Shown piece by piece: positions 1 to 22,492 of a stretch of DNA of 64,000 bases. This DNA is from Omphalotus guepiniiformis (Eukaryota; Basidiomycota; Agaricomycetes; Agaricales; Omphalotaceae), in contig JAQOOI010000056.1 of assembly GCA_028554645.1 (NCBI GenBank), forward strand, positions 48,837 to 112,836. Direction: 5' to 3'. How positions within the stretch are numbered: position 1 is the first letter of the stretch; every line of letters starts with the position of its first letter. The translations under genes were made by a program, and so were the position numbers. The notes under the pieces were generated by a model. It was not told the DNA's origin and ran no database searches. It saw nothing but the letters and a program-made list of their open reading frames with translations.

Positions 1-191
1 GAGAAGGTACTTCAATTCAATTTCCTAGGCCAGACCCACCGTCACGTCGAAACTCAGTAGTCCCACCAACTATTGATAGACATTCTCATTCGGACGATGA
101 ACTATCCGAAGTCCACACACTTCTATTTGATTTACATATTTCACCGAACTCTGCACCTATTTTACCTATAATTCAAGAAAATATCATAAAA

Positions 192-1535
192 ATGCCGGCT
201 ATGGATAAGATTCCGAGGAGAAGAGAACGTGGAGCACCAGATTTGCGTCGCGATCATGATGTAGACGACGTCAGAGACTATCTGGGGGAGATTGAGGATA
301 TTATCCAAGATTTCAAAATAGAGGAAGAAGCGGATAAGAAATCAGTCGCGTTGCGTTACCTACCCGCAACTATAAGAGAACAATGGAAGGCGTTGCCTAC
401 GTACGAGAAAGAGGAAGGGACGTTTATCGAGTTCCGCGACGAGATTTTGAAGAGTTATGATGGAGGATCGGACGAGGGAACTTTCTCCTTCGCAAAATTC
501 GAAAGAGCCGCGAAGAAGTATAAGAATATAACGATGGAAGATCTCGAAGATGTATTAAGAATGAGGAATACCCTAAGGCCGTTCCTTAAGCACTACACTA
601 CGACCGCGTTGTATACTAACAGAGAAATTGTCAGAGTCCTCCGCGGAATGTTTGAAGATGAATTTTGGAGATCCATCACGTTGACTTTGAAGTTACAAAA
701 GCGTGCGAACCCACCTGCAGAGGCTAGACCGAGAGATGATGCCTATACAGCAGAAGAGATTCTGGACGAGGCAGAATTTAACGCGAGATCTCAGGTTGAG
801 GAAGTAATTAGTCTTGGGAACGTAAGGTCCGCGAAGGAAGATAGAGGAAAGAAAGTAGAAAAAGTGAAGCATGAGCAAACGGAAGGATGGGTGGCGGAAT
901 TGAAAGATCTAATCACGATTCAAACAAAGAACCTTACCCAGAGAGCCGCGAGAGAAGAAGAAATGATGGGTAAACTGCTAGAGCAATTAAAGCTCGCGGC
1001 ACCTGGAACGAGTAGCGGTACCAGGCATCCAGAACGTATACCCTATATGGCGCCGCGGGACTACGGGAGAACCGCGTTGAATGACAACCGTCCCGACTAC
1101 TTTCGAGCCGCGACGTGTTGGTTCTGTGGCTTAAACGGACATATGGCAGGGCAATGTATGGTACGCAAGCAGTACGTAGATGATGGAAAGATCATTTTGA
1201 AAGAAGGGATCACTTGTATGCCAGATGGAGAGCCAGTAGCACAGAAAGCTCCAAATGGGCCTCCTCAGAAAGACTTTGTGGACCGAAGACTGTCTGAAAA
1301 GAAAGTACAAGCTTCTCAGGTTGAGGTACTACAGATGCAACTAGAGGAGGTCGAGTCGTACAATAAACAGTACACTAGAGTTTGGCAAGAATATGAAGAG
1401 GCGAAGCGTGCTCAAGAAAGGGTGTTAGAATCCAATCTCAGCGCGGCCTATATTCGAGGGTCGGCAAGAGATTCAATAAGTAACGTGGCAGTTAGTAACA
1501 ATGAGAAAGGAAGGTTCGAGGAGGGTTTTCGGTAA
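192..1535 (+). CDS. gag: Gag-like protein, element 1
   Basis: Structural capsid/nucleocapsid protein of element 1, 447 aa from the first ATG. The frame is open without a stop back to base 3, so the true start may be upstream and outside the window; a Pro/Ser-rich stretch precedes the ATG as in the gag of element 2. The first ~230 residues are charged and helical, as expected for a Gypsy capsid region. A CCHC zinc knuckle (C-x2-C-x4-H-x4-C, CWFCGLNGHMAGQC) lies at about residues 309-322. The C-terminal ~120 residues look like coiled coil. The ORF ends four bases after a GGGTTTT slippery heptamer in the correct phase, which would fuse it to the protease frame. Confidence 0.85.
   Translation: MPAMDKIPRRRERGAPDLRRDHDVDDVRDYLGEIEDIIQDFKIEEEADKKSVALRYLPATIREQWKALPTYEKEEGTFIEFRDEILKSYDGGSDEGTFSFAKFERAAKKYKNITMEDLEDVLRMRNTLRPFLKHYTTTALYTNREIVRVLRGMFEDEFWRSITLTLKLQKRANPPAEARPRDDAYTAEEILDEAEFNARSQVEEVISLGNVRSAKEDRGKKVEKVKHEQTEGWVAELKDLITIQTKNLTQRAAREEEMMGKLLEQLKLAAPGTSSGTRHPERIPYMAPRDYGRTALNDNRPDYFRAATCWFCGLNGHMAGQCMVRKQYVDDGKIILKEGITCMPDGEPVAQKAPNGPPQKDFVDRRLSEKKVQASQVEVLQMQLEEVESYNKQYTRVWQEYEEAKRAQERVLESNLSAAYIRGSARDSISNVAVSNNEKGRFEEGFR
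1523..1529 (+). promoter_or_regulatory. -1 ribosomal frameshift site GGGTTTT (gag to pro)
   Basis: The heptamer is read in the gag frame as G GGT TTT, the canonical X XXY YYZ form. The gag stop TAA is at 1533-1535. Slipping back one base moves ribosomes into the frame of the protease ORF, which is then open to 2749. The stimulatory RNA structure was not evaluated. Confidence 0.7.
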
Positions 1536-2749
1536 GTTCGAGGATGGAAAGCCAGGCCCCTACAAAAGAGAAAAATCCTGTTAGGGCCGCGGCACCTGAG
1601 AATGATACTGAAAACAAGGGTAATGAACGACGGTTGTGGAAAGAAAAGGACGCGGAACCTGAGAAGGACGCGAGCCTAGAGAAAGATAAGTATAAGGAGT
1701 TGGTCAAGAGGGAAAAACGTTTGAGATTCGATGGTGTCGAGATGCCTCCGCTACCTACAGTAGTGAAGAAGAGCCGCGTACCAGAGGTTCCTTACGCGAA
1801 CGTACCTGATGTGTCGTATTCGCCAACTGAGCAAGAGAAACTGAAAGCTCAGAAAGAGCGGTTAGAGAACCCGAGGGGGATAATTTGGAAGACAAGGAAT
1901 GAGAAGGCCGCGGAGTCTCCTGTTATTCCGTTAACTAAACATCCTGACGCGGAAGAAACAGTAGTGGAATCAGAAATTTCACTCAGAGGAACGATCAAGT
2001 CAAGAGTCAAATTGAAGCCTGAAGAGACCGCGGGAGGTTTGAGAGAGATCCTAGCCAAAAGCCCCCTATTACCTTTTAGCGAGGAAAATGTAGGAGAGGT
2101 TCACGTAACAGCAAATACAGTCGCGTTAGCTGACCTTAATGTCACCGCGGAAGTTTTTGTTCTGAAACAGGCGGAAGGAGATCTTCCAGCAGGAGCGGTT
2201 GTGATTAGCGATCCAGTTGAACAGTACGTGGAAAGCCTGGGAAGCAAAGATAACCCAATTCAGATCTACGTGGCAAGAGATTCAGAGTCGCTTCGATGCG
2301 TGTATCCTTTGGTAAATGGTACCGCGAAGATCGAAAGTCTACTAGACTCGGGTTCACAGATTATCTCTACATCGGAGAAAAGAGCTCGCAAAGCAGGTTT
2401 ATCGTGGGACCCGGACATAGTAATCTTTATGCAATCGGCTAACAAGGGTGTTGAGAAGTCTTTGGGATTGGCGCGTAATGTACCATTCTTACTAGGCGGA
2501 ATCACCGTGTACTTACAAGTACATGTAATTCGAGACCCCGCATATGAATTGCTACTGGGACGGCCTTTTGACACGATCACGGAGAGTTTAGTGGATAATC
2601 ATGCAGATGGAACGCAGGACCTTGTTATTCAGGACCCTAACACTAAGAAGCGAGCTGTTGTACCTACCTATGAGAGAGGGAAAGGTTCTGTACCTATAAG
2701 CAAAGACAAGGAACAGACTCAGGGTTTTTCAGCAGCTTCGAGGAATTGA
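1529..2749 (+). CDS. pro: Retropepsin-type aspartic protease domain, element 1
   Basis: Reading frame in -1 relative to gag and probably made only as a gag-pro fusion by slippage at 1523-1529; an ATG at 1544 would be the alternative start (401 aa). The N-terminal half is Lys/Glu-rich linker. The catalytic motif is LLDSGS (about residue 268 from the ATG), followed by the hydrophobic flap region and LLGRPFD near residue 340, the pattern of retroviral-type aspartic proteases with DSG in place of DTG. The same arrangement, VVDSGS then LLGRPFD, occurs in element 2. The frame ends at TGA 2747-2749, just past a second GGGTTTT heptamer. Confidence 0.8.
   Translation, partial: SVSSRMESQAPTKEKNPVRAAAPENDTENKGNERRLWKEKDAEPEKDASLEKDKYKELVKREKRLRFDGVEMPPLPTVVKKSRVPEVPYANVPDVSYSPTEQEKLKAQKERLENPRGIIWKTRNEKAAESPVIPLTKHPDAEETVVESEISLRGTIKSRVKLKPEETAGGLREILAKSPLLPFSEENVGEVHVTANTVALADLNVTAEVFVLKQAEGDLPAGAVVISDPVEQYVESLGSKDNPIQIYVARDSESLRCVYPLVNGTAKIESLLDSGSQIISTSEKRARKAGLSWDPDIVIFMQSANKGVEKSLGLARNVPFLLGGITVYLQVHVIRDPAYELLLGRPFDTITESLVDNHADGTQDLVIQDPNTKKRAVVPTYERGKGSVPISKDKEQTQGFSAASRN
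2722..2728 (+). promoter_or_regulatory. -1 ribosomal frameshift site GGGTTTT (pro to pol)
   Basis: The heptamer is read in the protease frame as G GGT TTT. A one-base backward slip enters the pol frame, which has no ATG near its beginning (its first in-frame initiator-like codon is TTG 2746). It is the same heptamer as at the gag-pro border. Confidence 0.72.
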
Positions 2750-5700
2750 TCCCAGATCAAGGAGAAGCCGCGGTGGTTTTTGAATTAAATGACGAAGGTA
2801 TTCCCATTGGCATAAGTGATGTAGTATTTGCAGATATAAACGAAGAGCAAAAATCAAAGTTTGGGAAGCGAGAGTTACGCGATCTATACTTATCTGCCGC
2901 GGAAAAGTATATTGATCTAAAAAGTGATAAAGAAACGACGAGACCCATATTGAGATCCTATTTGAGTTCGGTGTATGGAGCGCAAAATCCTGCCGCGTAC
3001 TCTCAAGCAAATTTCACGGTGCAAGAAGTAGAAGACGGCGTAGAAGAGTTACAGCAAATTCCCCTGTTTGATGTAAGGAGCATCGCGATGCTTGATGTAT
3101 CCCCTGATATGAAAGATCAAGTGAGGAGGCACGCGTCGCGGCTGTGGAAGGAACGTTACGAACCAATTAGTATCTTGGCAGGGAAGAAATACAAACCTGT
3201 CGCGTTGAAAACACGCCCTGTTCTAGGAGATTTACCATCGAAGTTTAGAATCATAAGAGAGATTAAAGGAGATCCATTGGCTGATATGCCGCAGCTTTCG
3301 CCTAATCCTCCAGAATTCACGCCGACTGGTAGGTATACTCAGGAACGTAAAGAGATAATAGACGAGATACATAAGGAAGAATTCCTTTGGCCAGAAGAAC
3401 GGAAGTTGATGCATCATATGATGATGCAGCAAGAGAAAGGGTTCGCGTGGGACGACAGTGAACGCGGAAGATTCAGAACAGATTTCTTTCCTTCAGTAGA
3501 GATGCCCGTGATACCTCATACACCTTGGGTTGAGAGGAACATTCCTATTCCCCCTGGTATTTTTAATGAAGTATGCGCGGCAGTTAGACGAAAGATTGAC
3601 GCGGGAGTTTACAAACCATCGAACTCGTCTTACCGATCGAAGTGGTTCGCGGTGTTAAAGAAAGACGGAAAGAGTATTCGACTAGTACATAGTTTGGAAC
3701 CGTTGAACGCGGTAACAATAGCACATTCTGGTATACCGCCTGCTACTGAAGAGCTCGCGGAGAAATTCTGTGGTAGAGCTTGTGGAGGAATTCTAGATTT
3801 ATATGTTGGCTATGATGAAAGAGAGTTGGCAATAGCATCGCGAGACTTAACTACATTCCAGACTCCCTTTGGAGCCCTGAGGTTAGTAACACTACCGATG
3901 GGATGGACGAATTCAGTACCAATCTTCCACGATGATGTAACACACATATTACAAGAAGAGATCCCGGAGTTTACGCAACCATACATCGATGATGTTCCTG
4001 TACGCGGTCCTGAAACGACTTATCAAAGTGAAGATGGTACGTACGAGACCATTCCTGGTAATGATGGGATACGGAGGTTTATTTGGGAACATTTCACCAA
4101 TATGAATAGAGTCATTCAAAGAATGAAGTACTGTGGTGGGACTTTCTCAGGCCCCAAAGCTGTATTGTGTAAAAGCGAGATTACCGTGGTCGGACATAGG
4201 TGTACACGAGAAGGAAGAGAGATCGACCCGGAACGAGCGAAAACTATTACCAACTGGGGTGGACCTGAGAATATCCTAGAAGAGAAGGATATAAGACCAT
4301 TCTTAGGCACCGCGGGACTAGTAAGAATGTTCGTCAAAGACTATGCAAAGATCGCGGAGCCTTTAACCCGATTTACGCGTAAAGATATTCCGTTCGAATG
4401 GCGACAAGAGCAAAGTGACGCATTGGCAAAGTTGAAAGAGGCAGTAAAGAATAGCAAGGCATTACGACCACTAAAGTATGATGTGGAAGACCCTGTTATA
4501 TTGGCAGTAGATACGTCGTGGAAAGCGGTTGGGTTCTATATTTGTCAAGTGGATCCAGAGAATCCGCGACGAAGGTTCTACTCCAGATTCGGTTCGATTA
4601 CACTAAGTGATCGCGAAGCTAGGTTTTCACAGCCGAAACGGGAGTTGTTTGGTTTGTATCGCGCGTTACGAGCGTGCCAGTATTGGTTGTTTGGTATTCG
4701 CAACCTTATAATCGAAACTGACGCGAAGTACATTAAAGGCATGTTAGAGCATCCTGATCAAATGCCAAACGCCGCGATAAATAGGTGGATAGAGTCGATC
4801 ATGATGTTTCATTTTAAACTGAAGCACGTACCAGGCAAGGTTCACGGACCTGATGGACTATCACGGCGGGATAAGCAAGTAGGAGACGATGAGTATGACA
4901 ATCCTGAAGATGGTGAAGTTCAAGAACCCTATAAATTCGAGGAGTTTGTAGATAAGATTGACTCTAAGCAGGGTTACGCGCAAGTATTAGTTGATGAGAA
5001 AGAGGAATGGAAAAGTAATTATATGACTGGTTTAGCCGCGTCGGTAGACGACTTTAAGGAAGAATTGACGCGTGCTTATAAGCAAGAACGAGAGTTCCGC
5101 GACATACCAGAAGTAAAACAGTTTGTAGCCGCGAACTTGGCTAGTGAAGTACCAGAACTCGAGGAGCCACCAGAGCATATTGACGAAACAGAGTATGATG
5201 AGTCTAAGCGATCGAAGGGAGCGATAAACCAAGATAAAACAGTCGCGGAGGTTTTCAAATGGCTAACAGACACTTCTAAGAGGCCTGTAGGCTATGAGAA
5301 TAACAAACACTTCAAGAACTTTTTAAGGTTAGCGCGGAACTTCTTTATACAAGACGGAAAACTCTATCGACGTGGAATTGAGGCAAAACATAAGCTGGTA
5401 GTTGAGAAGTCGCGTCGCGTCGCCATGATCCATGCTTGTCATGATAGTCTGGGGCACCGCGGCTTCTTCGCTACTAAATCCTTACTTATGGAACGCTTTT
5501 GGTGGCCTGAAATGGAGAAAGACATCTATGAGTATGTGAAGACCTGTCATACGTGCCAAGTAAGACAAAAGACAAAGATCAGGATTCCTCCTACCGAGAC
5601 GAAGACACCGTCAATCTTTCAGAAAATTCACGCTGACACCATGTATATGCCGGCGTCGAATGGCTACAAGCTGATTGTACATGGTAGGTGCGCGTTAACC

Positions 5701-6687
5701 GGCTGGATGGAAGGAAGACCGTTGAAAGCAGAGTCCGCAAGAGCGATTGGACAGTGGTTATGGGAAGAAATTATCTGCCGCTGGGGCTGTCTTATGGAGA
5801 TAGTTACAGATAATGGCGGACCTTTTCTAAAGGCGTTGGAATGGTTAGAGAAGAAATATGGCGTACGCGGTATTCGCATATCACCTTATAACTCCCAAGC
5901 CAACGGTATCGTGGAACACGCGCATTATGATGTGCGACACAGTCTCATAAAGGCCGCGGGAGGTGACGATTCAAAATGGTTTTACTATTTCTACTTAGTA
6001 ATGTGGGCTGATAGGTGTACCATAAGAAAGAGATTTGGGTGCTCCCCATTCTTCGCAGTAACTGGTGCGCACCCCTCGCTACCTTTTGATATCGTTGAGG
6101 CAACATGGCTTGTAGAATATCCTGATCATTTCATAAGTGACGCGGAACTAATTGGACTACGGGCGAAAGCATTAGCTAAGCACGCGAAGCACATAGTTGA
6201 ATTGCGGGAACGCGTAACACGTGAGAAAAGGTCACGGTTGTTGAGGTTTGAAAAAGAGTATAAGTATGTTATTAAAGACTACGTGTTTAAGCCAGGTAGT
6301 TTGGTCTTAGTTAGGAATACTCAGATTGAAAAATCTTTGAACTCTAAAACAAAGCCGCGCTATTTAGGACCTATGGTAGTACTCAGGCGTACCACAGGTG
6401 GCAGTTACATTGTGGCAGACCTAAATGGTGCGGTGTTCCAGAATAAAATTGGAGCCTTCCGCGTAATTCCATATTGGCCACGGTCGCACATTGAACTCCC
6501 CGAGAACCTAAGTGAGCTGATTGGTTTGTCAGAAGATGGCTTGTTGAGAATTGAACAAGGTCTAGAAGAAGAAGAAGAAGATTTATCCGTAGAACACGAT
6601 CAAGCGGACCTAGATGGTGAAATTCACGCGGACGTTTCAGTATACGACGCGAAGCACTGGATATCGAAGCCGAAGATCTTTCAGTAA
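2728..6687 (+). CDS. pol: Pol: reverse transcriptase, RNase H, integrase (element 1)
   Basis: Polyprotein of about 1320 aa entered by -1 slippage at 2722-2728. The reverse transcriptase lies around 3.5-4.3 kb, with YIDD at about 3982-3993 in an unusual YIDDVPV context and TLPMGWTNS upstream. RNase H follows at about 4.5-4.9 kb (AVDTSWKAVG, ETDAKYIKGML). The integrase has an HHCC zinc-binding region near 5430-5560 (HDSLGHRG, CHTCQ) and a DDE core near 5630-5930 (VTDNGGPF, SPYNSQANGIVEHAH). A C-terminal GPY-like region (PRYLGPMVVLRR) is present and there is no chromodomain. No stop or frameshift was seen, so the copy could be active. The C-terminus is acidic. Confidence 0.92.
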   Translation, partial: FSSFEELIPDQGEAAVVFELNDEGIPIGISDVVFADINEEQKSKFGKRELRDLYLSAAEKYIDLKSDKETTRPILRSYLSSVYGAQNPAAYSQANFTVQEVEDGVEELQQIPLFDVRSIAMLDVSPDMKDQVRRHASRLWKERYEPISILAGKKYKPVALKTRPVLGDLPSKFRIIREIKGDPLADMPQLSPNPPEFTPTGRYTQERKEIIDEIHKEEFLWPEERKLMHHMMMQQEKGFAWDDSERGRFRTDFFPSVEMPVIPHTPWVERNIPIPPGIFNEVCAAVRRKIDAGVYKPSNSSYRSKWFAVLKKDGKSIRLVHSLEPLNAVTIAHSGIPPATEELAEKFCGRACGGILDLYVGYDERELAIASRDLTTFQTPFGALRLVTLPMGWTNSVPIFHDDVTHILQEEIPEFTQPYIDDVPVRGPETTYQSEDGTYETIPGNDGIRRFIWEHFTNMNRVIQRMKYCGGTFSGPKAVLCKSEITVVGHRCTREGREIDPERAKTITNWGGPENILEEKDIRPFLGTAGLVRMFVKDYAKIAEPLTRFTRKDIPFEWRQEQSDALAKLKEAVKNSKALRPLKYDVEDPVILAVDTSWKAVGFYICQVDPENPRRRFYSRFGSITLSDREARFSQPKRELFGLYRALRACQYWLFGIRNLIIETDAKYIKGMLEHPDQMPNAAINRWIESIMMFHFKLKHVPGKVHGPDGLSRRDKQVGDDEYDNPEDGEVQEPYKFEEFVDKIDSKQGYAQVLVDEKEEWKSNYMTGLAASVDDFKEELTRAYKQEREFRDIPEVKQFVAANLASEVPELEEPPEHIDETEYDESKRSKGAINQDKTVAEVFKWLTDTSKRPVGYENNKHFKNFLRLARNFFIQDGKLYRRGIEAKHKLVVEKSRRVAMIHACHDSLGHRGFFATKSLLMERFWWPEMEKDIYEYVKTCHTCQVRQKTKIRIPPTETKTPSIFQKIHADTMYMPASNGYKLIVHGRCALTGWMEGRPLKAESARAIGQWLWEEIICRWGCLMEIVTDNGGPFLKALEWLEKKYGVRGIRISPYNSQANGIVEHAHYDVRHSLIKAAGGDDSKWFYYFYLVMWADRCTIRKRFGCSPFFAVTGAHPSLPFDIVEATWLVEYPDHFISDAELIGLRAKALAKHAKHIVELRERVTREKRSRLLRFEKEYKYVIKDYVFKPGSLVLVRNTQIEKSLNSKTKPRYLGPMVVLRRTTGGSYIVADLNGAVFQNKIGAFRVIPYWPRSHIELPENLSELIGLSEDGLLRIEQGLEEEEEDLSVEHDQADLDGEIHADVSVYDAKHWISKPKIFQ

Positions 6688-6907
6688 ATCACTCAAGAGA
6701 TAGGGCCACATGGCAGTTTTATTATAAAAACGAGTGTATGATCTGTACGTGTTATGTTGAAATATACGCGACAAATTGGAAATAAATAAGTTTACGCGAT
6801 AGTTGAATACAAGTGCGGAAGGGAAACGGAAAGTTACGCGGTACCTCTATTCACGACAAGAAGATTAAAAAGTGTCGCGGAAGCACAAGAAAAGTTCCAG
6901 AAGCAGT

Positions 6908-8346
6908 TCAAGTATCAGTCACGGAGGGCATATCTTCGTCGCCAGTCATATCGATAAGGGGAACGTTAGTTTTATTAACCAGCTCCTTCTGCTGCGACGC
7001 GATGCTCTGGTAGCTCTTCATCAGCAAATCCCGCATTTGGAGCTGGAGACTGATCTGATGGTTGACCGCGATAAGTTTAGAGCGAGTCTCGAACTCCAGC
7101 ATGGTGAGGCTACGATCAGTAGGCCCACTAACGGGTTCGAGCACCGCGAGATTGGCACGATCAACGAGTGACTGCACAACCGAGTTAGAGAAAGTGGAGA
7201 CAGGGTCTACCAAAAGATAGGTTAGTTGAAAAGTCGCTAGCGGCAGTATGAAAACGTGACACGTACTAGGGGGTGCCAGAGGTGGATCGAGCATAGAGAA
7301 GTTGTGCGCCCAAGTAGGAGGAGCTGCCGCGACACTAACCACCTCCATCTTAGCTTTCTTGGCAGGAGGATTGATGGTACTCTTATCCACCGCGGCAACT
7401 GCCTTAAGGTATTGCCGTGAAGTAATAAGCATGCGTGGTATCTCAGAAAAGTGGAGATATCTTACGGGGTGATTAGTCGACGCGTGAGGCTATGAAAGGA
7501 ACGTTAAGTCAGAATAACATTGGGAGAAGGAATGGTGGTCGTACCCTTTTAACTGCCGCGACGCTAGGCTCAACCTTTGGAGTAAAGGGGGCAACGCGGG
7601 TAACTTCTTCAACTGCTGCGAGGTCGAGAGTCTGAAGCGAGGTACATAGTTTTAGCAACAGAGCAAGCTGGCTCGGGGTAGGGTGGCGACCTACCGTGGT
7701 ATTAGTAGTGGAATCTGCAATAGAGGGGGATTCATCGTCACCCATAGCAATATCGCTACCCGCCGCGTCGTCGTCAACCTCCTCGTCACTACTATCAATA
7801 CGAGCTTGGGATGCAATACGCTTGCGAATCTAGGAAAAAGTTTTAGTACCAGTGGTTATTCAAGAAAAAGAACTGATTACTTACGCGGCGGCTAGTACGA
7901 ACGCGACCTTTGCCTTTGACGGGCACTGGGGTTACAGCAGTTGGAACAGGAGCAGCCGCGGCGACTTTGGGAACCTCCTTGGGTTTACCAAACTGAACAC
8001 ATTTACCGTGGTACGGACCAAGTAAATGATGAGTTGGTGTATACTTCGCGGTAACTGGGTCCCGCGGCAGTTGTTCAAAGAAGAACAGAGTGAAAGTACG
8101 AATGTCAGCGTTAGCCAGCGCGGCATCAGGGTGAGCTTTCCAGAGCTCGAGCTAAAAAGAGCGAAGTAAGGCACGGGAAGGGAGTCAGCGCAGTAGGAAA
8201 CCTACGAGTTTTTGTGCACAAGACATCGCGATGCGATTAGCATCGTCAGCACCACGTTTGGCTCGACGCTCGCTAAACGACTTATAAAGAGGTGCTACCT
8301 CTTCCACGAGAAACTGGACGTCAACAGAAGAAGTATCAGTAGACAT
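6908..8346 (-). CDS. Antisense accessory gene B of element 1 (spliced)
   Basis: Convergent with pol, whose stop is 220 bp away. My model has five exons: 8346-8206, 8151-7885, 7829-7545, 7489-7267, 7206-6908, giving 404 aa; phases agree and introns are 50-60 nt with GTAGGT, GTAAGT or GTACG donors and CTAAC-like branch sites. The middle exons are less certain: a further 63-nt in-frame intron inside exon 3 and a GTAAGA donor in exon 4 are possible. The product is unrecognised. It has a KGKGRVRTSRR basic stretch, an acidic Asp/Glu patch and a helical C-terminus rich in Gln/Leu, ending TGDEDMPSVTDT. Gene B of element 2 has the same position, strand, phase-0 first introns and phase-1 last intron. 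Confidence 0.6.
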
Positions 8347-8823
8347 AAGTGAATCCGATCGGAAGAACTTAGGGTTTGGAGGGCCTTTTATACCAGGCCA
8401 GGGCAGTCATGACTACGAGGAAACTTGTCAGTGTAGAATTCTAAGTCCGCGATACTTACTTTCAAAGTGGACGCGGCGGACCATATGGTACTTTACCAAA
8501 GGACACGAGTGTTCAAGACAACTGGGGACAGTTGCAATTTCAAAGATGGGGAAGGGTCACAGGAGTAGAAAAGTACCGCGTAAGGATCGCTCGAATGTAC
8601 CGCGTAGAGTTAAGTGCCGCGTAGGATCGCTTGAATTCTGAAAAATCTTATATAACAAAGAAAGTGTCATACAGCTTAAAGATTCAATCTCCATGAAACA
8701 AAAGCAGTGATGATTTTCATGTAACAAAGAATATACAGGATCCGCGATATGACAATACTACGATACTAAAAGCTTTTATTACCGCGGGGCCTGGACAAGA
8801 ACGATGAACGCATGCAGTGATCA
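8347..8823. other. Intergenic stretch between accessory genes A and B of element 1
   Basis: No convincing ORF. It holds the presumed promoter of gene B and several CGCG-containing repeats of the form TACCGCGTA or TGCCGCGTAGGATCGCT near 8570-8640. Confidence 0.5.
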
Positions 8824-11133
8824 CTAGTTCTGATATGCATGGTGAAGAGAATCCGGGTTTATGGAGGAAAGCTCCCCCGCGTCGATTTTGGGTTGAATTT
8901 GTTCATCAATAATCACCTTGGCCAAGTCCCCGCTAAGTCGAAGCTGGGCCAGGTAATCTTTGCCAAAATTAAAATACCCCGCAGCAATAATGTCGACGAG
9001 CTCCGCGACCTTGCCTTCCGCCTTACGCTGAACCCCATGCATCGCTTTGGCAATATGTTCCAGGTCTTCAAAAAGCGTCGCGGCCTCGTGTTGAAGAGAT
9101 AGAGCATCTGAAAACTAGAAGTTAGGAGGAGAAAAGCAAGCAAAAGAAAGAAATACATACGGCGAACAGAGAAGAGGCCGCGGTTGTGCATTGCATCATC
9201 TTCGAGCGCGATCTTCCGTATACCGTAGCGAAATGTACAAGCCGAGTCCTTCTTACTCAAGCACTCGTTACAGGACTCGCCAGGTGCCACGAAGACACAA
9301 GGTTTGCCATGAACGACACAAGAGCTGCACCGAAGAGAAGGCTAGCAACGAAAAGTAGAAAGTCAGAATAAAGTGCCGCGGTACAGGAAGCTAGATCACG
9401 TACCAGATTGACGCTCTTGGCCACGGATTGAAACATTTTGATATGAGAAGTCATCAGGGGCGGCAATAGACCAGGGAAATCGAAATTGATTGCTTGCGCA
9501 GAAGGAGCCTCGTTAGGCTGAAACCACCGCACACCTGCCTCGAAGTTGCCGTGAGAAGAGGAAGGAGCCGCGGAGGCTTTACTTCCCTTGGTGATAGGCA
9601 AGGAGTCGCGAGGAATTGCAGCGCCCATCTTCGCTGCCGCGGGGAAAACATGGTCGTACCAGTATTGAGGATACCCCTCCACTTCGCGTAGAAATCGACG
9701 ATTGTCCGCGGGATCACCCATTTGAGGAGGAGGAGTGAGGAATCGGCCCTCCTCTTGAATAGTAGTAGCCGCGGGTTTGGTATTGGCCCGCTTCTTACCT
9801 TTGCCTTTGCCTTTCACCTGAAAGGGAGAAGACCTTTAGAAAGAGTGTTGGACAACGGGCAAACCAGCAAGACTTACAGGAGGAGCTGGGTCCTCAGGTA
9901 GAGATGAAGTCGCGGGCAGCGCCGCGGAAGCTCCCGGTTGACTAACAGCAACAGCAGAAGGGGGAACGACTGTCGTGGAGGTTAATGGCGAAAAGGAAGC
10001 CGGTACCCCAGAGGAAAGAAGAGCAGGAGGGATCGCGCCGTCTCGCAGAGAAGGTGGTAAACGAGGGGTAACGGGCAGCGGCACCTCTATCATGTCCTGA
10101 CCAAAGCCAGCGGATAAGTCAACCGGCGGAGGCGATCGAGAATGAGCCTAAGTAAGCCAGAGTTTTGAACAAAGAGTCGCGGAGAATTTGTAAAAGAAAC
10201 TTACGAAGGGAGAGCCAGCAGAGGGAGTAGGAGCGGTAGCGGGCAAAGAAGTAGAGTCCGCGGGGACACTAGGAACAACCTCAGCTGTGGGCTCCGCGTC
10301 AGATTCACTGTCCACGCGTCGTCGAGAAAGAACGCGACGACGTTCCTTAGAAAACGAAGTCTCTATATCGGACTCGACAGCTTCATCATCGAACTAAGAA
10401 AAGACGAAGTCAGAAAATAAGCATTAGGGAGGAACAGAGAAATAGTACCAAGTTCAACGGTGGAGGACGTTTCCCCGAACCAACGCGACGATGTCCATGT
10501 TTGCGGTGAGAACGCGCAACGGGAGTAGCTGACGCGGGGCTAAGATCGTAGGTCTCATCCTTAAAGGCCAAAAAGTCAGCGTCGTATTGCGCCCGATCTT
10601 CCGCGGTGACAGGGCGAAGCTGCAAGAGACAAGTAAAAGTATAAGGTAAAAGAAGGGACAAGAAACTGTTGTACCAAATGAGAAGTCTGACCGCGAGAAC
10701 GAGCACGCTTGGACGCGAGTTTTCTCAGCGTCTCACGGCGAACGTGTGAACGAGACTCCGCAGGAGGAGGCGATGGAGTACGACGCGAAGACGAAGCGAG
10801 TGAAGGCAAAGCCGCCGCGGAAGTAGGAATCACAGTCGGTTGGACAGCCAGTTGCCCGCTACGGATGTATTGAAGCAGAGCGAACTCCGCAGCAGATATA
10901 GACTGCTGTGAGTTAGGCTCCGACATTCCAGGAAGAGGTGCTGGGGCTGCCTCGCGGCGTTGTCGTTTGTGAGGGCGAGAGTTTGAAGGTCGAGGAGAGG
11001 GCATGATAGATTTAGTCTCCGAAGGTGTGGGTGAAAAAGCCTGTCCAAGGAAGTTAAGAAAGGGATCACCAAGAGCGGCCGCGACACTTACTATTAAAGA
11101 ATTATAGTCAAGGGGTTCAGCTTTGATGGGCAT
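8824..11133 (-). CDS. Antisense accessory gene A of element 1, Zn2Cys6-like
   Basis: Eight exons by my model: 11133-11092, 11040-10675, 10619-10449, 10393-10205, 10147-9878, 9817-9404, 9341-9161, 9107-8824, summing to 1917 nt (638 aa) with all phases consistent. The first ~350 residues are Pro/Ser/Ala-rich and low complexity, followed by a KGKGKGKKR basic stretch. Exon 7 encodes a Cys cluster spaced C-x2-C-x6-C-x8-C-x2-C-x7-C (CSSC ... CNEC ... ACTFRYG), the spacing of fungal Zn(II)2Cys6 DNA-binding domains. The last exon is a probable coiled coil (HEAATLFEDLEHIAKAM). Unlike most Zn2Cys6 factors the cluster is near the C-terminus. Function is unknown; DNA or RNA binding is an inference. Homologous to gene A of element 2. 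Confidence 0.7.
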
Positions 11134-11570
11134 AAACCAGTGATGAAAGAGGGAGCAAAAAGTTGAAGTTCGACACCCGGGCACTGAAGGTTATATACAC
11201 CTCGCGGCGATGGGGTCCTCAGATTGGTGCCAGTATCAAGTTCCATTCCTAGAAGACGCGAGAGCAAGAGTTTGATGTATTACACACTTATTCAGGGTAC
11301 GACATACAGCTTTGACAAAGAAGCGATGGCAATTCATTAACTGAATAACCGGTATGTCCGGGAACTAACGTAACCGGACGATGAGGAATGAAGAGACGCG
11401 GCGATTTACCAATAAGGCAACGTGATGGAATGTGATGTGACAAGAAGGAGGGAGAGCGCTACATGGGTCAGAAAGAAGTTTGTGATATCCAGAAAAGGGA
11501 GGTTGATGCGCCTTTCCAGGATAGACCCTGAGTAGGACCCCAGCGACTGGGACAGTCGATATTTTAGTCA
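11134..11570. other. Region upstream of antisense gene A, element 1
   Basis: About 440 bp between the start of gene A and the polypurine tract. No supported ORF. It must contain the antisense promoter unless that lies in the 3' LTR. CGCG motifs continue through it. Confidence 0.4.
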
Positions 11571-11578
11571 GGGGGAGA
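11571..11578 (+). other. Polypurine tract of element 1
   Basis: GGGGGAGA directly precedes the TG that opens the 3' LTR, and a TATTTTA stretch lies just upstream. Element 2 has the same GGGGGAGA|TG junction at 33146-33155, with TATTTTA at the same distance. Plus-strand priming site of reverse transcription. Confidence 0.75.
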
Positions 11579-12697
11579 TGATACGACCGCAGGAATACCA
11601 CTACCATTTTTTGGCCTCGCGGGATTGATCACTCCAGTACAAACCTACTAAGTACACTGTATAGTCCTAAGTTACGCGGTGTATTACGCACATTCAACCA
11701 CTAGTATATGTGTACAAAGGTGTACAAGACTGTAGAACGGCACTAAATGGGTCTTCTCAGTGTAGGTATTACCTAAGTATACACTCAAGTAAAGCGTCGC
11801 GGCACTTGTTCTAAGGTCCGACGTGTATAACTTGATGGCCCCAATACTGTATAAACCAACGCGTAGGTAACAAAGTACCGCGGCACTACTCAGAAGGCCA
11901 GACTTAGAAACCAGGTAGCAGTAGCTCCGTGCACTAGTCATATCTAATGACCACTGTTGAGCCACAGAAGGGTCTAGACGTACGATGTAACACGAAGTAC
12001 TTCCGACGACGCGGAAGTAGAACACGTAAGGAGACACAGTGTTAGCGAACTACCGCGGTACTTTCTAAAAGCGGCAAGATTATAAACCGATATAGGATAC
12101 CCTGTTTACCGCGTACTATACTTCATCCCTACCCTACGCGGTGCACCATATGCACCATATATCTCATAACTGTCAAGTATCGCGACATTTGTTTGTACTA
12201 TGTAAATAGAAATACTGTATATAAGAAATAGAACCTGGGCAAGGAAGGACAGGTTCCCGAGCCCCCCCCCCATAGAGCTAATAGCATTTGTGTGTGGAAA
12301 AGCTTAAGTCCCTCTGAGTGATTAGAAGTTTTAAAAGTGTTAACCGTCGCGTTAGTTCATAAGTCAGTGTGCCTGAGTGTTTACAAGCGGGATCGTCTGG
12401 TACCGCGGAGCCTGTGTGTGTAGTGCGAAGAAGAGTGGATCGTCTGGTCACTCGTTGAACTCGTCGTCTGGCAGTTCTGAAATCCTCCTATACCCAACTC
12501 CACTAAGTGAGAAGTCGTCTGGCATCTCCCAACAATCGTCTGGTTGTTGTATCGTTTGTAGTCACTGGTCGCGGTGATTTGTTAAAGTTACGCGTTAGTT
12601 CATTTGAGTGGTGTGTAGCATAGAGTTATCTGTGCCGCGTCGGTTTTGACTGTGTCTCCGCGTTCCTCTTACAACAACCTTATTCACTTCACAGAGT
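11579..12697 (+). repeat. 3' LTR of element 1 (right end approximate)
   Basis: Begins TGATACGACC after the polypurine tract. A TATATAAG box at 12218-12225 is the likely U3 promoter, followed by a run of ten C at 12262-12271. CGCG occurs about every 65 bp. The right border is set where the CGCG enrichment ends; the matching 5' LTR needed to fix it is outside the window. Confidence 0.55.
12393..12543 (+). repeat. Five copies of TCGTCTGG
   Basis: Exact octamers start at 12393, 12440, 12464, 12515 and 12536, all on the same strand, inside the presumed transcribed part (R/U5) of the element 1 LTR. Candidate binding or packaging motif; no known function assigned. Confidence 0.6.
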
Positions 12698-13193
12698 TTG
12701 TTAGTCCCCCAAACCCCACGAACTTAAAAGTCTTTGTGTGTTGTGTGTGTGTTTTGAGTGCTTGATAGATTCATTCGAGTTAGTTAGCACTTCTTCTCAT
12801 TCATACCCCATACCAAGCACATCAACGTCGCCTATAGTACAAAACAGTAATGTTGAGTCCGACTGTGTACTGGCAGACATAAGACATCGATTCCTGATCT
12901 TCGGAGACGGGTCTTTGTGCTGGGGACGTCGCTCCAATCCTAGAAAGGAGGGCCCAGTTGAACTATCAAGAAGAGTGTGGTTTTGGAACCAAACATCATC
13001 ATTCCTATTCAAACAAGTACCCGAAATCTCTTCGTGAGGTTACTGACGGTACAACTTTGAACAAATCATCACGTCTTGGTTTTCAAACGACCTTGACGAC
13101 CTTTTCAATTCGAATCCCGCATCACCTACCACTCCTCCATACAGATCCCTTACATCATCCCCATATTCCACCCGACCTCCATCACCGATCAGA
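12698..13193 (+). other. Untranslated leader of the chromovirus (partial)
   Basis: About 500 bp ahead of gag with no supported ORF and no sequence shared with its 3' LTR. CGCG frequency drops abruptly here compared with element 1. A TGGGGACGTCGCTCC stretch near 12920 resembles the TGG start of a primer binding site, but no tRNA match could be verified. Confidence 0.4.
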
Positions 13194-14084
13194 ATGTCTG
13201 ACGAATCACAAAAAGGAAGATCCCTTTTGAACAAGCCTGAGAATTTCACCGGAGCTAAAGGAGAATTCAAGATATGGCGAAGAAGGTTGTTCATGTTCAT
13301 TCGTGATAAGAAAAACAACATCAACTCTGATGACGAGAGAATAGATGTTGCTATTTCTTACATGAATGGCAAGAACACAGACGGATGGGTTCAAAATTAT
13401 TACGAGACCCATTACAACGAAGAAGAAGAGAAATGGAAAAAGACGTGGGCTGAGTTCAAACAAGATTTGAACACCGCGTTCTTGGATTCGGGTTTGCAGC
13501 GAGCAGCCCAAGAGAAGATCGAAGTGCTCAGACAGGGCACTGGAACGGCTGAAGAGTATTTCCAGCAATTGGAAATACTGTTGACCGAGGCCGAGTACAA
13601 GAAGGATGATCCCTATGTAGTCAGGATTATCGAGAAGGGCATCAGTGACAAGATCATTGACGCAATCTATTCACAAGATGCGTTGCCGGTGGATTATGCA
13701 ACATGGAAAGACAAAGTGATCAAAATTGATCACTTATGGCGCAGGCGCCAAGAGATGCGAAAGCATCTCGGACAGAATCGATCGGCCTTTGTGCCAAGAG
13801 AAACAAGCCCGCAGAACGCGGCACGTGGTGGCGACCGTAAAGACGCCACAGGAACAACCTTTGGGGGCATAGGTAAACCCATGGATCTGGATGTAGCCCG
13901 AAAGACCGGGTTATGTTTCAATTGCGGAGTCAAGGGACACATGTCCCGAGATTGCCCATTGAAGAAGGAACAGAGAGTGCGGCAGATAAATGTGACAGAG
14001 GAAGAGAAGAAGGAAGAACAGCCACCGAGCTGGTTCCTAAACTGGTTGAAGTCGGACACGGGTTTTGTCAAGACTCAGAAGTGA
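13194..14084 (+). CDS. gag: Gag, chromovirus
   Basis: 296-aa capsid/nucleocapsid protein starting at ATG 13194. The first 190 residues match the Gypsy/Ty3 retrotransposon Gag layout (LLNKPENFTG opening, WxxF/FxxL helices, AAQEKIEVLRQGTGTAEEYFQQ). A CCHC zinc knuckle, CFNCGVKGHMSRDC, lies at about residues 242-255. The ORF overlaps the pol frame and ends at TGA 14082-14084, 16 bases after a GGGTTTT slippery heptamer in the right phase. Confidence 0.9.
   Translation: MSDESQKGRSLLNKPENFTGAKGEFKIWRRRLFMFIRDKKNNINSDDERIDVAISYMNGKNTDGWVQNYYETHYNEEEEKWKKTWAEFKQDLNTAFLDSGLQRAAQEKIEVLRQGTGTAEEYFQQLEILLTEAEYKKDDPYVVRIIEKGISDKIIDAIYSQDALPVDYATWKDKVIKIDHLWRRRQEMRKHLGQNRSAFVPRETSPQNAARGGDRKDATGTTFGGIGKPMDLDVARKTGLCFNCGVKGHMSRDCPLKKEQRVRQINVTEEEKKEEQPPSWFLNWLKSDTGFVKTQK
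14060..14066 (+). promoter_or_regulatory. -1 ribosomal frameshift site GGGTTTT (gag to pol)
   Basis: Read in the gag frame as G GGT TTT inside the gag-pol overlap. A one-base backward slip bypasses the gag stop and enters pol. Same heptamer as both sites of element 1. Confidence 0.7.
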
Positions 14085-17000
14085 TTACAGGTCCTTCTGA
14101 GTCAGAATCGGAACAATCTAGTGTAGATCACATAGATAGCAAATTTCATTTTGTATTTACGCACCCTGAGAATAAATTTGCATCAGCATCTACAAAGACC
14201 GATTCAAAACCTGTGAGAGAGAGATATCCGCCGAATTCACCAGAATGGATAGCGCAGAGAGTAAGAGAGGATGAGTCAGAACGAGCGGTGGGAATCTTGA
14301 GAACGTGGATGCCAACCTGTCGGGCCAGGGAAGCATCGGAAGCAACGGTTGCCCAAATTAGGTCATTGGATATTAGCGAAGCCGTATCAGCCGTAAAGAC
14401 GCTCAAAAAGTCTTTACGCTTTGTAAAAGGTACTAAGGGACGAGATCTCAAATTGTCGATCACAATCGAAGACATAGAAAGTGGCAAACAAATTGAGACG
14501 TCGGCATTACTTGATAGTGGAGCCACGGGTTCTTGCGTAAACAAAGAATTCGTAGAAAAGCACGGCTTAACTGTCAAGAAACTACCAATCAGAATGCCAG
14601 TATATAATGCAGATGGTACCTTAAACGAAGATGGTTCAATCGAAGGATTTGTGGAAGTCAGATTGGCAATAGGAGATCATGCGGAACGCATTGAACTTGC
14701 TGTCACCAATTTAGGAAAAACGGACATTTTCTTAGGACTAGACTGGTTAAGACGTCATAATCCAAATATAGATTGGAATGATTCAATTTTAAACTTTGAC
14801 CGGTGTCCAAAAAAGTGTGGCTATATCCCGTTTTACCTAAAACCCGAATCTGAGGCTGAGATCCAAGAACTTGAAGAAGGTGACAGGTTGTTTTACCTGA
14901 ATTGGGACGGATATCTCCGGAGTATGACTTTTGGAAAAGGAAAAAAGACGGAGTCAAAGGCAGACAAGTATGTCAATGAGTATAAAGATGTCTTTGACGA
15001 AGCCGATTTCCAAAATCTACCGGAACGTAGACCCTGGGACCATGCAATCGAATTGAAGCCGGACTTCACACCGGTTGATTGCAAAGTATATCCATTAAAC
15101 CCTGCGGAACAAGTAGTATTGGATGAGTTTATCAAGGAAAACCTGAAATCTGGACGAATCAGAATGTCGAAGTCACCTATGGCGTCACCATTCTTCTTCG
15201 TAAAAAAGAAGGACGGGAAGCTTCGACCAGTCCAGGATTATCGGAAACTGAATGAAGCAACGATAAAGAACAAATATCCGTTGCCACTCATTCAGGAACT
15301 CATCGATAAACTGAAAGATTCCAAGGTTTTTTCTAAAATGGATGTTCGATGGGGATATAACAATATCCGAATCAAGGACGGTGATGAGTGGAAGGCGGCC
15401 TTTAGAACTAACCGGGGACTCTTTGAGCCAACGGTTATGTTCTTTGGACTCACAAATTCTCCCGCGACCTTTCAAGCTTTCATGAACCACATATTGAGGG
15501 ACTTGATTAACGAAGGTCACGTCATGGTATACTTGGACGACATTTTAATATTCACGGATACAATCGAAGAACATCAATCAATTGTAAAAAGGGTATTAGA
15601 CATATTACGAGAACATAAGTTATATCTGAGACCCGAAAAATGTGAATTCGAAACAGACGTCGTTGAGTATCTGGGAGTTTTTGTGGGGAACGGACAAGTA
15701 CGCATGGACCCAAAGAAAGTTAAGGCGGTAAAAGATTGGAAAGTGCCGGGAAACAAGAAAGAAGTACAATCTTTCTTGGGTTTCTGCAACTTTTACCGAC
15801 GATTCATTCGAGGGTTTAGTCAAATAGCCAAACCATTGTCTTCACTTACCGGGAACACGAAATGGGAATGGACAGAGCTACAACTGCAGGCATTCGAAGA
15901 ACTCAAGAGTAGAATTGCCGAGGAAGTAGTTTTGACCATACCCAGGGATCAGGGACAATTCCGTGTAGAAGCGGATTCATCGGACTATGCAAATGGAGCC
16001 GTGCTATCACAAAAAATAGACGGTAAATGGTGGCCAATCGCCTTTAGGTCGAGATCTCTTAATGAAACAGAACGTAATTATGAGATCTACGATAAGGAAA
16101 TGATGGCTATCATGGATTCCCTTGCAGACTGGCGGCAATACCTAATGGGAGCAGCAGAATCCTTCGAGATTTACACAGATCATCAAAATCTGCAGTATTT
16201 CAAGAAGCCCCAGAAGTTGAACCGCCGACAAGCCCGATGGATAACGGAATTATCCGAGTATGATTTTACCTTGATCCATAAACCTGGAAAGTCAATGGGG
16301 AAGCCTGATGCATTGTCCAGGATGGCCAATCATGAGACGGGGGAAAATGACAATGCGAACTTAGTACTTCTGAAGCCGGAACTTTTTTCGATCAACAAAC
16401 TGGAAATGCCCGAAGATGAGATCTTAGATCTTATCAAAAAGAAGTCAAAAGTACGGGATAATCTAGTCAATAAGGCTTTAGAAGGAAAAGATCAGGGTTG
16501 GGTTGAGTCATCAGAAGGAATAGTCACATGGCAAGATCGAATCTACGTACCTATTGACAATAGGTTACGAGGAAAGATCATTGGCATTCATCATGACTCG
16601 GTTCTTGCGGGACATCCGGGACAATTTAAAACCATGGAGTTGGTAACAAGGAACTATTGGTGGCCAGGAATCACTCAAGATGTACGGAAGTATGTCAAGG
16701 GTTGCGAAAAATGTCAGGCTACTAAAAGTCATCGAACCAAACCAACTGGAACTCTGGTACCGAATGAGATTCCGGACGGACCATGGCAGACAATCGGAAC
16801 GGACTTAATTGGCGAACTACCGGAAGCTGGCGGATTTAATGCAATAAGCGTAACCGTGGATCATTTCACAAAGCGGGCACGCTTAATTCCCACGCATATG
16901 TCATTAACGTCGGAAGGAATGGCCCGGATCTATAGAGATAGGATCTTCCCAATACACGGATTACCACGGAAAATCATTCATGATAGAGGTCCACAATATC

Positions 17001-18004
17001 ACGCTAAATTCATGAAGGAACTTTACCGACTATTGGGAATTCAGGGTAGTTTCACAACGGCGTACCACCCACAGAGTAACGGTCAAACTGAACGAATAAA
17101 CCAAGAGATAGAACACTATCTCAGGATTTTCATTAATCAGCATCAGAATGACTGGCACGAGTGGCTGCCAACAGCGGAATTCGTATTGAATGATAGAGTA
17201 CACTCGGCTACAAAAGTGTCTCCATTCTTTGCGGATATGGGAAGACATCCGTATAAAGGGACAGCTCCGGTTAAGACGTCATCAAACCCAACAGCACAGG
17301 AATTTGCGGACTCAATGAAGAAGATCAGAGAAGAAGTAGGATCGGCATTGACGAAGGCAAAAGCGGACATGGCACGACACTACGACAAGAAGCGGACAGC
17401 TTCAATAGAATACAAGCCGAAAGACAAAGTTTGGCTTGAAGCAACAAATCTAACTTCTGATCGTCCAATGAAAAAACTGGATGATAAAAGATTTGGTCCA
17501 TTCGAAGTCGTAGAAAAAGTAGGTGCCACATCCTATCGCCTTAAGATGCCAAAGACCTGGAAACGGATCCATCCCGTGTTTAATGAAGTACTGCTTACTC
17601 CGTATCACGAACCGCAATTTCCGGAACAACCTAAGAACGATCGACCCCCACCTGTGATAGAAGGAAAAGAACCGGAGTTTGAAGTAGAAAAGATCGTAGA
17701 CTCAGGGAAATACAGGGGAGGAAAATTTGGATACAAAGTGCACTGGAAAGGATATTCACGACACGAGCAGACATGGGAGCCGTTAGCGAATCTAACAAAT
17801 GCGAAGGAGGCAATTGAGGATTTCCACAAGAAATTCCCCGATAAACCCCGACTTCGTAAACTCGAAATACCCACTTCCTTATTTCCGACATCATTATTTC
17901 GACCAATGCCTAAACACGACACCTATACCGGAGTAGTAGATCAAAAGAAAATGCCAACTGAGGCCTTAGCAGTGAAGTTAGGACGATGGGGACATCGTGC
18001 CTAA
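14066..18004 (+). CDS. pol: Pol: protease, RT, RNase H, integrase, chromodomain
   Basis: Polyprotein of about 1310 aa entered by slippage at 14060-14066; the same frame is open back to 13913. In order: protease ALLDSGATGSC near 14510; reverse transcriptase about 15.1-15.7 kb with FSKMDVRWGYNNIR and YLDDILIF near 15530; RNase H about 15.95-16.35 kb; integrase with an HHCC region near 16590-16730 (HDSVLAGHPG, CEKCQ) and a DDE core 16.8-17.1 kb (HDRGPQYHAKF, YHPQSNGQTERINQE); GPF module near 17490; chromodomain at about 17680-17850 (EVEKIVDSGKYRGGKFGYKV, WKGYSRHEQTWEPL). Chromodomains direct integration toward modified histones in this family. No stop or frameshift was seen in pol. Confidence 0.95.
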   Translation, partial: CQDSEVITGPSESESEQSSVDHIDSKFHFVFTHPENKFASASTKTDSKPVRERYPPNSPEWIAQRVREDESERAVGILRTWMPTCRAREASEATVAQIRSLDISEAVSAVKTLKKSLRFVKGTKGRDLKLSITIEDIESGKQIETSALLDSGATGSCVNKEFVEKHGLTVKKLPIRMPVYNADGTLNEDGSIEGFVEVRLAIGDHAERIELAVTNLGKTDIFLGLDWLRRHNPNIDWNDSILNFDRCPKKCGYIPFYLKPESEAEIQELEEGDRLFYLNWDGYLRSMTFGKGKKTESKADKYVNEYKDVFDEADFQNLPERRPWDHAIELKPDFTPVDCKVYPLNPAEQVVLDEFIKENLKSGRIRMSKSPMASPFFFVKKKDGKLRPVQDYRKLNEATIKNKYPLPLIQELIDKLKDSKVFSKMDVRWGYNNIRIKDGDEWKAAFRTNRGLFEPTVMFFGLTNSPATFQAFMNHILRDLINEGHVMVYLDDILIFTDTIEEHQSIVKRVLDILREHKLYLRPEKCEFETDVVEYLGVFVGNGQVRMDPKKVKAVKDWKVPGNKKEVQSFLGFCNFYRRFIRGFSQIAKPLSSLTGNTKWEWTELQLQAFEELKSRIAEEVVLTIPRDQGQFRVEADSSDYANGAVLSQKIDGKWWPIAFRSRSLNETERNYEIYDKEMMAIMDSLADWRQYLMGAAESFEIYTDHQNLQYFKKPQKLNRRQARWITELSEYDFTLIHKPGKSMGKPDALSRMANHETGENDNANLVLLKPELFSINKLEMPEDEILDLIKKKSKVRDNLVNKALEGKDQGWVESSEGIVTWQDRIYVPIDNRLRGKIIGIHHDSVLAGHPGQFKTMELVTRNYWWPGITQDVRKYVKGCEKCQATKSHRTKPTGTLVPNEIPDGPWQTIGTDLIGELPEAGGFNAISVTVDHFTKRARLIPTHMSLTSEGMARIYRDRIFPIHGLPRKIIHDRGPQYHAKFMKELYRLLGIQGSFTTAYHPQSNGQTERINQEIEHYLRIFINQHQNDWHEWLPTAEFVLNDRVHSATKVSPFFADMGRHPYKGTAPVKTSSNPTAQEFADSMKKIREEVGSALTKAKADMARHYDKKRTASIEYKPKDKVWLEATNLTSDRPMKKLDDKRFGPFEVVEKVGATSYRLKMPKTWKRIHPVFNEVLLTPYHEPQFPEQPKNDRPPPVIEGKEPEFEVEKIVDSGKYRGGKFGYKVHWKGYSRHEQTWEPLANLTNAKEAIEDFHKKFPDKPRLRKLEIPTSLFPTSLFRPMPKHDTYTGVVDQKKMPTEALAVKLGRWGHRA

Positions 18005-20315: not shown

Positions 20316-20317
20316 TC

Positions 20318-20335
20318 TGGAGCCCACCGCGAGGG
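20318..20335 (+). other. Primer binding site of element 2
   Basis: TGGAGCCCACCGCGAGGG begins two bases after the 5' LTR with the expected TGG (complement of tRNA CCA). It would pair with a tRNA whose acceptor stem begins GCCCACC; the tRNA identity was not established. Confidence 0.6.
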
Positions 20336-22399: not shown

Positions 22400-22492
22400 A
22401 GTTTCCAATGAAGGAGATTGGTGAAGAAGCTGTATATACTCAGAATCCTTCTCACAAAACAGGTCAATCTCCTGAGGAAAGTAAACTTGTAA

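Follow-up and report, generated by a model that had tools for sequence, protein, structure and literature searches.

Why should a retrotransposon carry intron-rich genes on the strand opposite to its own gag-pol? The question is posed by a 64-kb stretch of the basidiomycete Omphalotus guepiniiformis (contig JAQOOI010000056.1, positions 48,837 to 112,836; hereafter the window), which contains three long terminal repeat (LTR) elements. Element 1 (E1) and element 2 (E2) each hold two predicted spliced genes, A and B, antisense to gag-pol; element 3 (E3) holds neither. Related copies elsewhere in the 42.5-Mb host genome are named here as families E2b and E4 or by L-numbered loci. The answer tentatively favoured is that the gene pair may allow an element to recognize its own kind.

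Two antisense genes beside pol

E1 (window 1..12900, plus strand) is recognized as a Ty3/Gypsy element from its open reading frames (ORFs), its Pfam RNase H and integrase zinc-binding domains and its sequence. The left end, with the left LTR, lies outside the window, and the right end at 12900 is approximate. The plus strand encodes gag (from 1), pro (1505-2749) and pol (2674-6687); the 3' LTR starts at about 11580 and is preceded by a purine tract. Between pol and this LTR, on the minus strand, lie gene B (6908..8346; 404 amino acids (aa), 4 introns; exons 8346-8206, 8151-7885, 7829-7545, 7489-7267 and 7206-6908) and gene A (8824..11133; 638 aa, 7 introns), which varies among copies. Exon 7 of A (9161..9341, minus strand) encodes a six-cysteine cluster, C-x2-C-x6-C-x8-C-x2-C-x7-C. 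A second, nearly identical E1 A/B region in the same orientation lies left of the window (C48:42599-46828), so that two E1 copies stand close together.

E2 (18471..34998, plus strand) is complete at 16.5 kb. As expected of a Ty3/Gypsy LTR element, it has a pair of LTRs with TG..CA ends (5', 18471..20315; 3', 33154..34998; both plus strand, 1845 bp each, 2 mismatches between them), bounded by a 4-bp target-site duplication, TCGC (18467-18470 and 34999-35002). ORFs and Pfam place gag at 20486-22399, pro at 22493-23806 and pol at 23767-27885 on the plus strand. Genes B (28088..29481; 342 aa, 6 introns) and A (30322..32849; 660 aa, 9 introns) again occupy the minus strand, and exon 9 of A (30906..31113, minus strand) carries the cluster C-x2-C-x10-C-x12-C-x2-C-x6-C. 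In both elements Pfam finds RNase H followed by the integrase zinc-binding domain, the Ty3/Gypsy order; no Pfam match to a reverse transcriptase (RT) domain was obtained in E1 or E2 pol. The RT-RNase H region of E2 has 1472 related proteins in the protein database, and E2 pol is similar to proteins from Lentinula, Moniliophthora and Armillaria, which points to an agaric-type basidiomycete as host.

A first-pass annotation of the window had proposed two spliced antisense genes in the order pol-B-A-LTR in both elements, and the gene models bear this out. The lengths it gave (638 and 660 aa for A, 404 and 342 aa for B) were reproduced, that of E1 A with introns 2 and 3 picked by eye; the program gives 613 aa for this gene, with two weak donors. 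The models of E1 B, E2 B and E2 A come from dynamic programming. For each gene, the real splicing score was reached by none of 60 dinucleotide shuffles. The introns of E1 B are all GT-AG, and its exons contain no indels in three relatives.

The annotation had also argued for selection rather than chance, and comparison of genomic copies agrees. E2 gene B has at least 40 scored matches in the host genome, at 95-100% identity and one of them partial. Twenty E2 regions were taken and two dropped (L009, the window itself, and L014, with only half of the A-B region), leaving 18 copies. The pooled ratio of non-synonymous to synonymous substitution rates (dN/dS) is about 0.12 rather than 1: distinct changes number 91 non-synonymous and 228 synonymous in A (0.124) and 15 and 38 in B (0.118), counts that are non-independent because the copies are related to each other. 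Third codon positions take 981 of 1328 changes in A and 176 of 200 in B. No splice site of either gene is broken across the 18 copies, and a stop codon occurs in a single A copy (L019). With the decayed copy L026 left out, 11 of 11 exon indels are divisible by three, as against 1 of 71 in introns; L026 itself has single-base insertions in exons. For E1 B against L031, dN/dS is 0.97, a value resting on 4 changes only. From these sequence comparisons we conclude that A and B, in E1 and in E2, are real genes under purifying selection.

The module, proposed in the annotation to be retained by a Gypsy lineage, extends beyond the two elements. The RT motif pattern PYIDDVPV occurs at 126 places in the host genome and, among the 100 matches listed, falls into at least three lineages by codon signature. 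E4, a third RT lineage, and E2b, a sister family of E2, carry the two genes at the same site and in unchanged order. E2b is 35-56% identical to E2 in A, 45-75% in B and about 90% in pol; one E2b copy (L037/L035) has pol divided over two open frames. E4 matches E2 at 26% in A (E 3e-16) and at 27-41% over three pieces of B (best E 6e-12). Independent splicing yields open A models in L029 (657 aa), L030 (646 aa), L031 (620 aa), E2b (658 aa, 9 introns) and the E4 copy L038 (547 aa). Most of the matches checked lie antisense beside pol and are not ordinary host genes: on the pol side, at a distance of no more than 6 kb, an RT motif in opposite orientation accompanies 32 of 36 E2-type B matches, with four further matches on contigs beyond the RT matches listed, and 28 of 36 E1-type A/B matches. 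The E1-type figure combines 22 of 29 by script with 6 of 7 on later contigs by hand; it uses 36 of 45 rows, with small pieces left out and pieces of one split element counted apart, and some matches without a nearby motif look nested or split. Since most checked matches adjoin the RT of this clade and three RT lineages share the module, a single capture of host genes is unsupported.

A variable gene and lineage-specific words

Gene A and its surroundings have diverged to very different degrees. Between E1 and L031 identity is 99-100% over most of B and 98% at the LTR, as against 56-71% over most of A, and synonymous divergence (dS) rises from 0.003 in B to 1.78 in A. The corresponding values are 0.053 and 1.52 for L030, and 0.067 and 0.49 for L029. 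Across these three comparisons A has a dN/dS of 0.16-0.27; the L030 and L031 alignments of A are imperfect, in that exon gaps change the frame, each alignment has one stop column, and donors are non-GT at 1 of 7 and 3 of 7 introns, respectively. Because synonymous divergence also differs in A, recombination or cassette exchange is needed, and not only relaxed selection. The E2 copies L019 and L023 are 84-92% identical over most of A (97% in one 250-bp step), with flanks at 96-100%. Judged from these alignments, gene A is a variable cassette, swapped between copies on a constant backbone. The description of the module as conserved was only half right: place and order are kept, but A varies strongly, and homology between E1 and E2 proteins is undetected.

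Variation within A is uneven. Between E1 and L030 or L031 the cluster exon is 85% identical, exons 2-6 and 8 are 32-57% identical and the 14-residue exon 1 93-100%. Between E2 and E2b the cluster exon 9 stands at 74%, the preceding 26-residue exon 8 at 88% and the others at 47-60%. In these pairs with a kept cluster (E1 with L030 and L031, E2 with E2b) both members have a word in common; E4 has another cluster and another word. One E4 copy (L034) has a frame break within the cysteine-cluster exon, at about 3640-3900, where the L038 copy is open. Fungal Zn2Cys6 clusters follow the pattern C-x2-C-x6-C-x5..12-C-x2-C-x6..8-C. The E1 A cluster fits this spacing; the first loop is x10 or x8 in E2 and E4.

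The words are clearest in E1. CGCG occurs at 149 sites throughout the element (1..12900, strandless) against 40 expected, and CCGCGG 28 times against 2.2; the density of CGCG is 11.6 per kb in E1 and 0.6-2.2 per kb elsewhere. The core CCGCGG is self-complementary, and the AAGT..ACTT-like flanks are symmetric. When codons are shuffled synonymously, CGCG remains in excess in pol (47 against 16.0), pro (12 against 4.4), A (27 against 12.8) and B (15 against 7.1), the real count being reached in 0 of 1000 shuffles for each gene. The GCGC control does not outlast such shuffling. Codon usage or CpG bias as the source of the word is rejected by this procedure with GCGC, CCGG and TCGA controls, TCGA being raised too in pro (8 against 4.3). 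By this measure the E1 word is kept in coding DNA beyond the demands of protein and codon usage.

Comparison of copies gives a similar picture. L029 keeps 44 of 52 E1 CGCG sites; for other tetramers that contain CG the figure is 515 of 755 (P 0.013). Within gene A, sites are kept at 9 of 28 in L030 (P 0.009), 7 of 27 in L031 (P 0.09) and 22 of 30 in L029 (P 0.036); other CG-containing tetramers of A are only 13-14% conserved in L030 and L031. Four A types (E1, L030, L031, L033) have CGCG densities of 9.6-13 per kb. A 16-base form of the E1 word is found 45 times genome-wide, 42 of them within 10 kb of E1-type matches (2.2% of the genome). This palindrome is paired about 13.1 kb apart on C15, C16, C20, C65, C68 and C74, as expected for one per LTR of a complete E1.

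Other lineages have other words. Those of E2 (18471..34998, strandless), AGTATCTAAC and AATCTG, are weaker than that of E1 and scarce in gene A. E2b has AGTATCTAAC with CTAACTC, and E4 has GGTCTAG, words of the GGTCTAGA and CTCGAGC types and a CAGA repeat. Synonymous shuffling of E2 leaves AATCTG raised in gag (10 against 3.0) and AGTATCT in pol (5 against 1.1). Words found outside gag-pol recur within it (E1 CCGCGG, 9 against 1.0; E2 AATCTG, 22 against 8.0; E2b AGTATCTA, 10 against 0.9), though not every tested k-mer passed. In E4 this discovery-to-coding test failed, the CAGA repeat dominating, and succeeded in the reverse direction only (GGGTCTA, 9 against 0.7 in coding and 4 against 0.6 in non-coding DNA). 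Genome-wide, GAGTATCTAACTC occurs 327 times and its reversed pattern 0 times; 74 of 100 listed occurrences lie within 12 kb of E2-type matches. AATCTG stands at 3.1 per kb in E2 and 0.8 in E2b, though AGTATCTAAC is common to both, and possibly each protein has one word. The control is E3 (13047..18004, plus strand), a chromodomain Gypsy element without antisense genes, between E1 and E2. Neither E3 nor host DNA has a comparable word, and words as a trait of all repeats are rejected on this ground, though the margin of E2 and E2b over host DNA is small.

A candidate self-recognition system and its rivals

The cysteine cluster with its helical-looking stretch, the word common within cluster-sharing groups and the coding density of the E1 word together point to a DNA-binding protein that would read its own lineage. 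On this view the products of the antisense genes would be nuclear and specific to the element. In Gal4 a helical stretch comes after the cysteine cluster, and A would be Gal4-like, with a variable N-terminal part, then the six-cysteine cluster, then a stretch that looks helical by eye. With or without B, it would bind the short word sprinkled over its own lineage; copies of the same kind, once coated, would be kept open or active against host silencing. Selection against common types, exerted by host defence or rival elements, would maintain diversity in the variable part of A. Such element-encoded self-recognition, an anti-silencing system like that of the VANC proteins in an LTR retrotransposon, is our tentative preference, at somewhat less than an even chance. 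That an LTR retrotransposon clade independently evolved a VANC-like system, with a word throughout its genome including coding sequence, an antisense cysteine-cluster reader and other domains swapped as an arms-race allele series, is possible and is held with appreciable doubt. We infer DNA binding, the identity of the word reader, the anti-silencing outcome and the agent that diversifies A from the patterns described above.

Several observations weigh against self-recognition by A. In the protein, the cluster exon is not always the best kept: against L029 it is 93% identical, no better than exons 3 (95%) and 8 (97%). Gene B is conserved among E1 types, and B instead of A could read the word. 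Scanned as whole proteins, E1 A and E2 A gave no match to a Zn-cluster Pfam family (E up to 1), and a Protein Data Bank (PDB) search with the E1 A cluster exon gave two matches, both at chance level (E 0.87, 1.1) and to structures other than Zn clusters. The single-sequence structure model of the A cluster is poor, with a predicted local distance difference test (pLDDT) score of 55; the last exon of E2 B has a predicted helix from residues 29 to 82, with 25 residues at pLDDT of at least 90. Single BLASTP comparisons of E1 and E2 proteins detect no similarity (E 0.028 for B, 0.22 for A), and hhalign gives a probability under 1%, like the reversed control. The similar protein architecture claimed at first holds for where the genes lie, their order and their many introns, as well as for a lysine-rich linker and, in A, the six-cysteine cluster; it does not extend to detectable sequence similarity. 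More generally, no A or B protein falls in a Pfam family, protein database searches with A and with its last exon returned no match, and searches of viral and genome contigs found no related loci, homologues in other fungi included. With 1472 relatives recovered for E2 pol and none for A, homologues of A may be masked by introns or by rapid evolution.

The words, too, raise difficulties. Synonymous shuffling shows no excess of the E2 words in the coding sequence of A or of B, and ATCT is lowest in gene A of E2 (10.3 per kb, 18-30 elsewhere). In 5.5-kb pieces the words of E2 and E2b reach a best z of 5.9-7.3 (k=7), when host controls reach 6.2 across k and 6.4 in a short flank. The full E4 palindrome, GGGTCTAGACCC, has zero occurrences genome-wide.

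The CpG pattern bears on the same question. In E2 the observed-to-expected CpG ratio is lowest in LTR, gag, pro and pol, at 0.18-0.27. Gene B has 0.49, gene A 1.09 and the gap between A and the LTR 1.38; gene A and this upstream gap form a CpG-rich island (30322-33153) in a depleted element. E2b resembles E2, E4 is milder, and E1 stands at 0.9-1.2 throughout. The gradient suggests that methylation may have acted over time on the rest of E2 and spared A, which would have remained open. Among recent copies, however, A also has an excess of CpG transitions (ratio 2.1, against 2.8-3.7), so that this is not clean evidence for an open A. The word-rich part of E2 is the CpG-depleted part, which fits past methylation and not protection. 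E3, without the module, is not depleted either (0.99), and the normal CpG of E1 therefore proves little. A decayed, diverged E1-type copy, L032, has a ratio of 0.52 and only 11 CGCG, and looks like the CpG decay of a silenced copy.

The CpG pattern of E2 somewhat favours an alternative in which A and B bind the words and silence their own lineage, as copy-number control or superinfection immunity, with A types as immunity types. The depletion of the word-rich part of E2, as after long methylation, and a variable gene on a constant backbone would both suit self-repression. E1, however, is word-rich yet not depleted, and the A types on one E1 backbone meet the same words, so that words cannot differ by A type; we regard self-repression as unlikely, if worth serious attention.

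A host factor might instead recognize the words, or they might work in RNA by self-complementary dimerization, A and B being unrelated cargo. The E1 core is self-complementary with symmetric flanks, and all words pass through genomic RNA. But they are lineage-specific within one host, where E3 has no comparable word, and as palindromes the E2 word is imperfect and the full E4 form absent; this account is improbable. Integration targeting is also hard to credit, and we rate it as decidedly improbable: A and B, bound to the words of copies already present, would direct new insertions into these as a safe haven. Elements are indeed clustered (a stretch of about 50 kb on C48 contains E2, E3 and two E1 copies), and an E1-type copy on C53 is split within gene B, its pieces 11.6 kb apart, as by nested insertion. 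Such apparent clustering would arise as well if insertions outside gene-poor regions were lost. Some long antisense ORFs are seen in other coding regions as well, but an origin of A and B by chance or artefact is rejected, its likelihood being negligible: selection is purifying, the splice sites are intact, exon indels keep the frame, shuffles fall short of the real splicing scores, and E2b and E4 have homologues.

Surroundings and known systems

Rfam and tRNA scans of the window gave no match. Reading frames with WD40 repeats and a NACHT-like part lie at 51368-55205 on the minus strand and suggest a putative STAND-type receptor. Host sequence occurs in two diverged copies (41394-42884 and 57129-59262), with pieces about 71-84% identical.

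VANDALs are DNA transposons of the Mutator-like group. According to excerpts of PMC5735166, the VANC proteins of VANDAL transposons in Arabidopsis remove silencing in a sequence-specific manner and recognize family-specific short words (YAGTATTAY for VANC21, AGTTGTCC for VANC6). The likeness lies in an element-encoded protein, dense lineage-specific words, related elements with different words, and protein regions that are conserved beside others that are highly variable (PMC5735166 and PMC10398659, as excerpted). Here the element is an LTR retrotransposon, words lie in coding sequence too, and the genes are spliced and antisense to gag-pol. VANC words are described as mainly non-coding, in tandem repeats (excerpts of PMC5735166), which speaks against the parallel. 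A cysteine cluster goes unmentioned in the excerpts of PMC5735166 and PMC10398659, unlike the six-cysteine cluster of A. Anti-silencing is known for VANC and would here be a function proposed by analogy.

Antisense coding sequence lying after pol and ahead of the 3' LTR is a lineage-constant trait of the plant Gypsy elements Retand (TRP28) and Grande (gene23), with DNA binding predicted for TRP28 and nuclear location for gene23 (PMC11963269 and PMC7264820, as excerpted). The elements studied here share this trait, and their antisense genes in that position are under selection. Unlike in those elements there are two multi-intron genes, and the four A and B proteins have no match to TRP28 (PF04195) in Pfam up to E 1, E1 A being scanned as the 613-aa model. 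Variation like that of the A cassette and element-wide words are unmentioned in the same excerpts. Boty-like elements of Botrytis cinerea (BcGypsy1) are likewise fungal LTR elements, and carry brtn as an extra gene in antisense (Zhao et al. 2011, as cited in the excerpt of PMC8365987); by that description they have one gene and an ascomycete host. Among fungal Zn2Cys6 (Gal4-type) factors, the likeness is the spacing in E1 A and a CGG within the E1 word; A differs in having no Pfam or PDB match and, in E2 and E4, wider spacings. Our searches of the open-licence literature turned up neither basidiomycete elements with a spliced antisense module of two genes, nor a cassette like A, nor an element-wide retrotransposon word, an absence that is weak evidence. 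The interpretation first suggested is qualified by the antisense genes already known in this position from plants and, in the excerpted account, by brtn as a single gene. Overall, the interpretation in the first-pass annotation is supported by the sequence analyses.

If self-recognition is the function, a recognition word in the coding sequence of an element copied through RNA would make self-recognition a wider parasite strategy. The antisense genes of plant Gypsy elements, so far unexplained, would become testable via a word of their own. Different words per lineage within one genome would permit direct mapping of binding specificity, and the A cassette, with several old versions on a young backbone, offers a natural experiment on what drives diversification.

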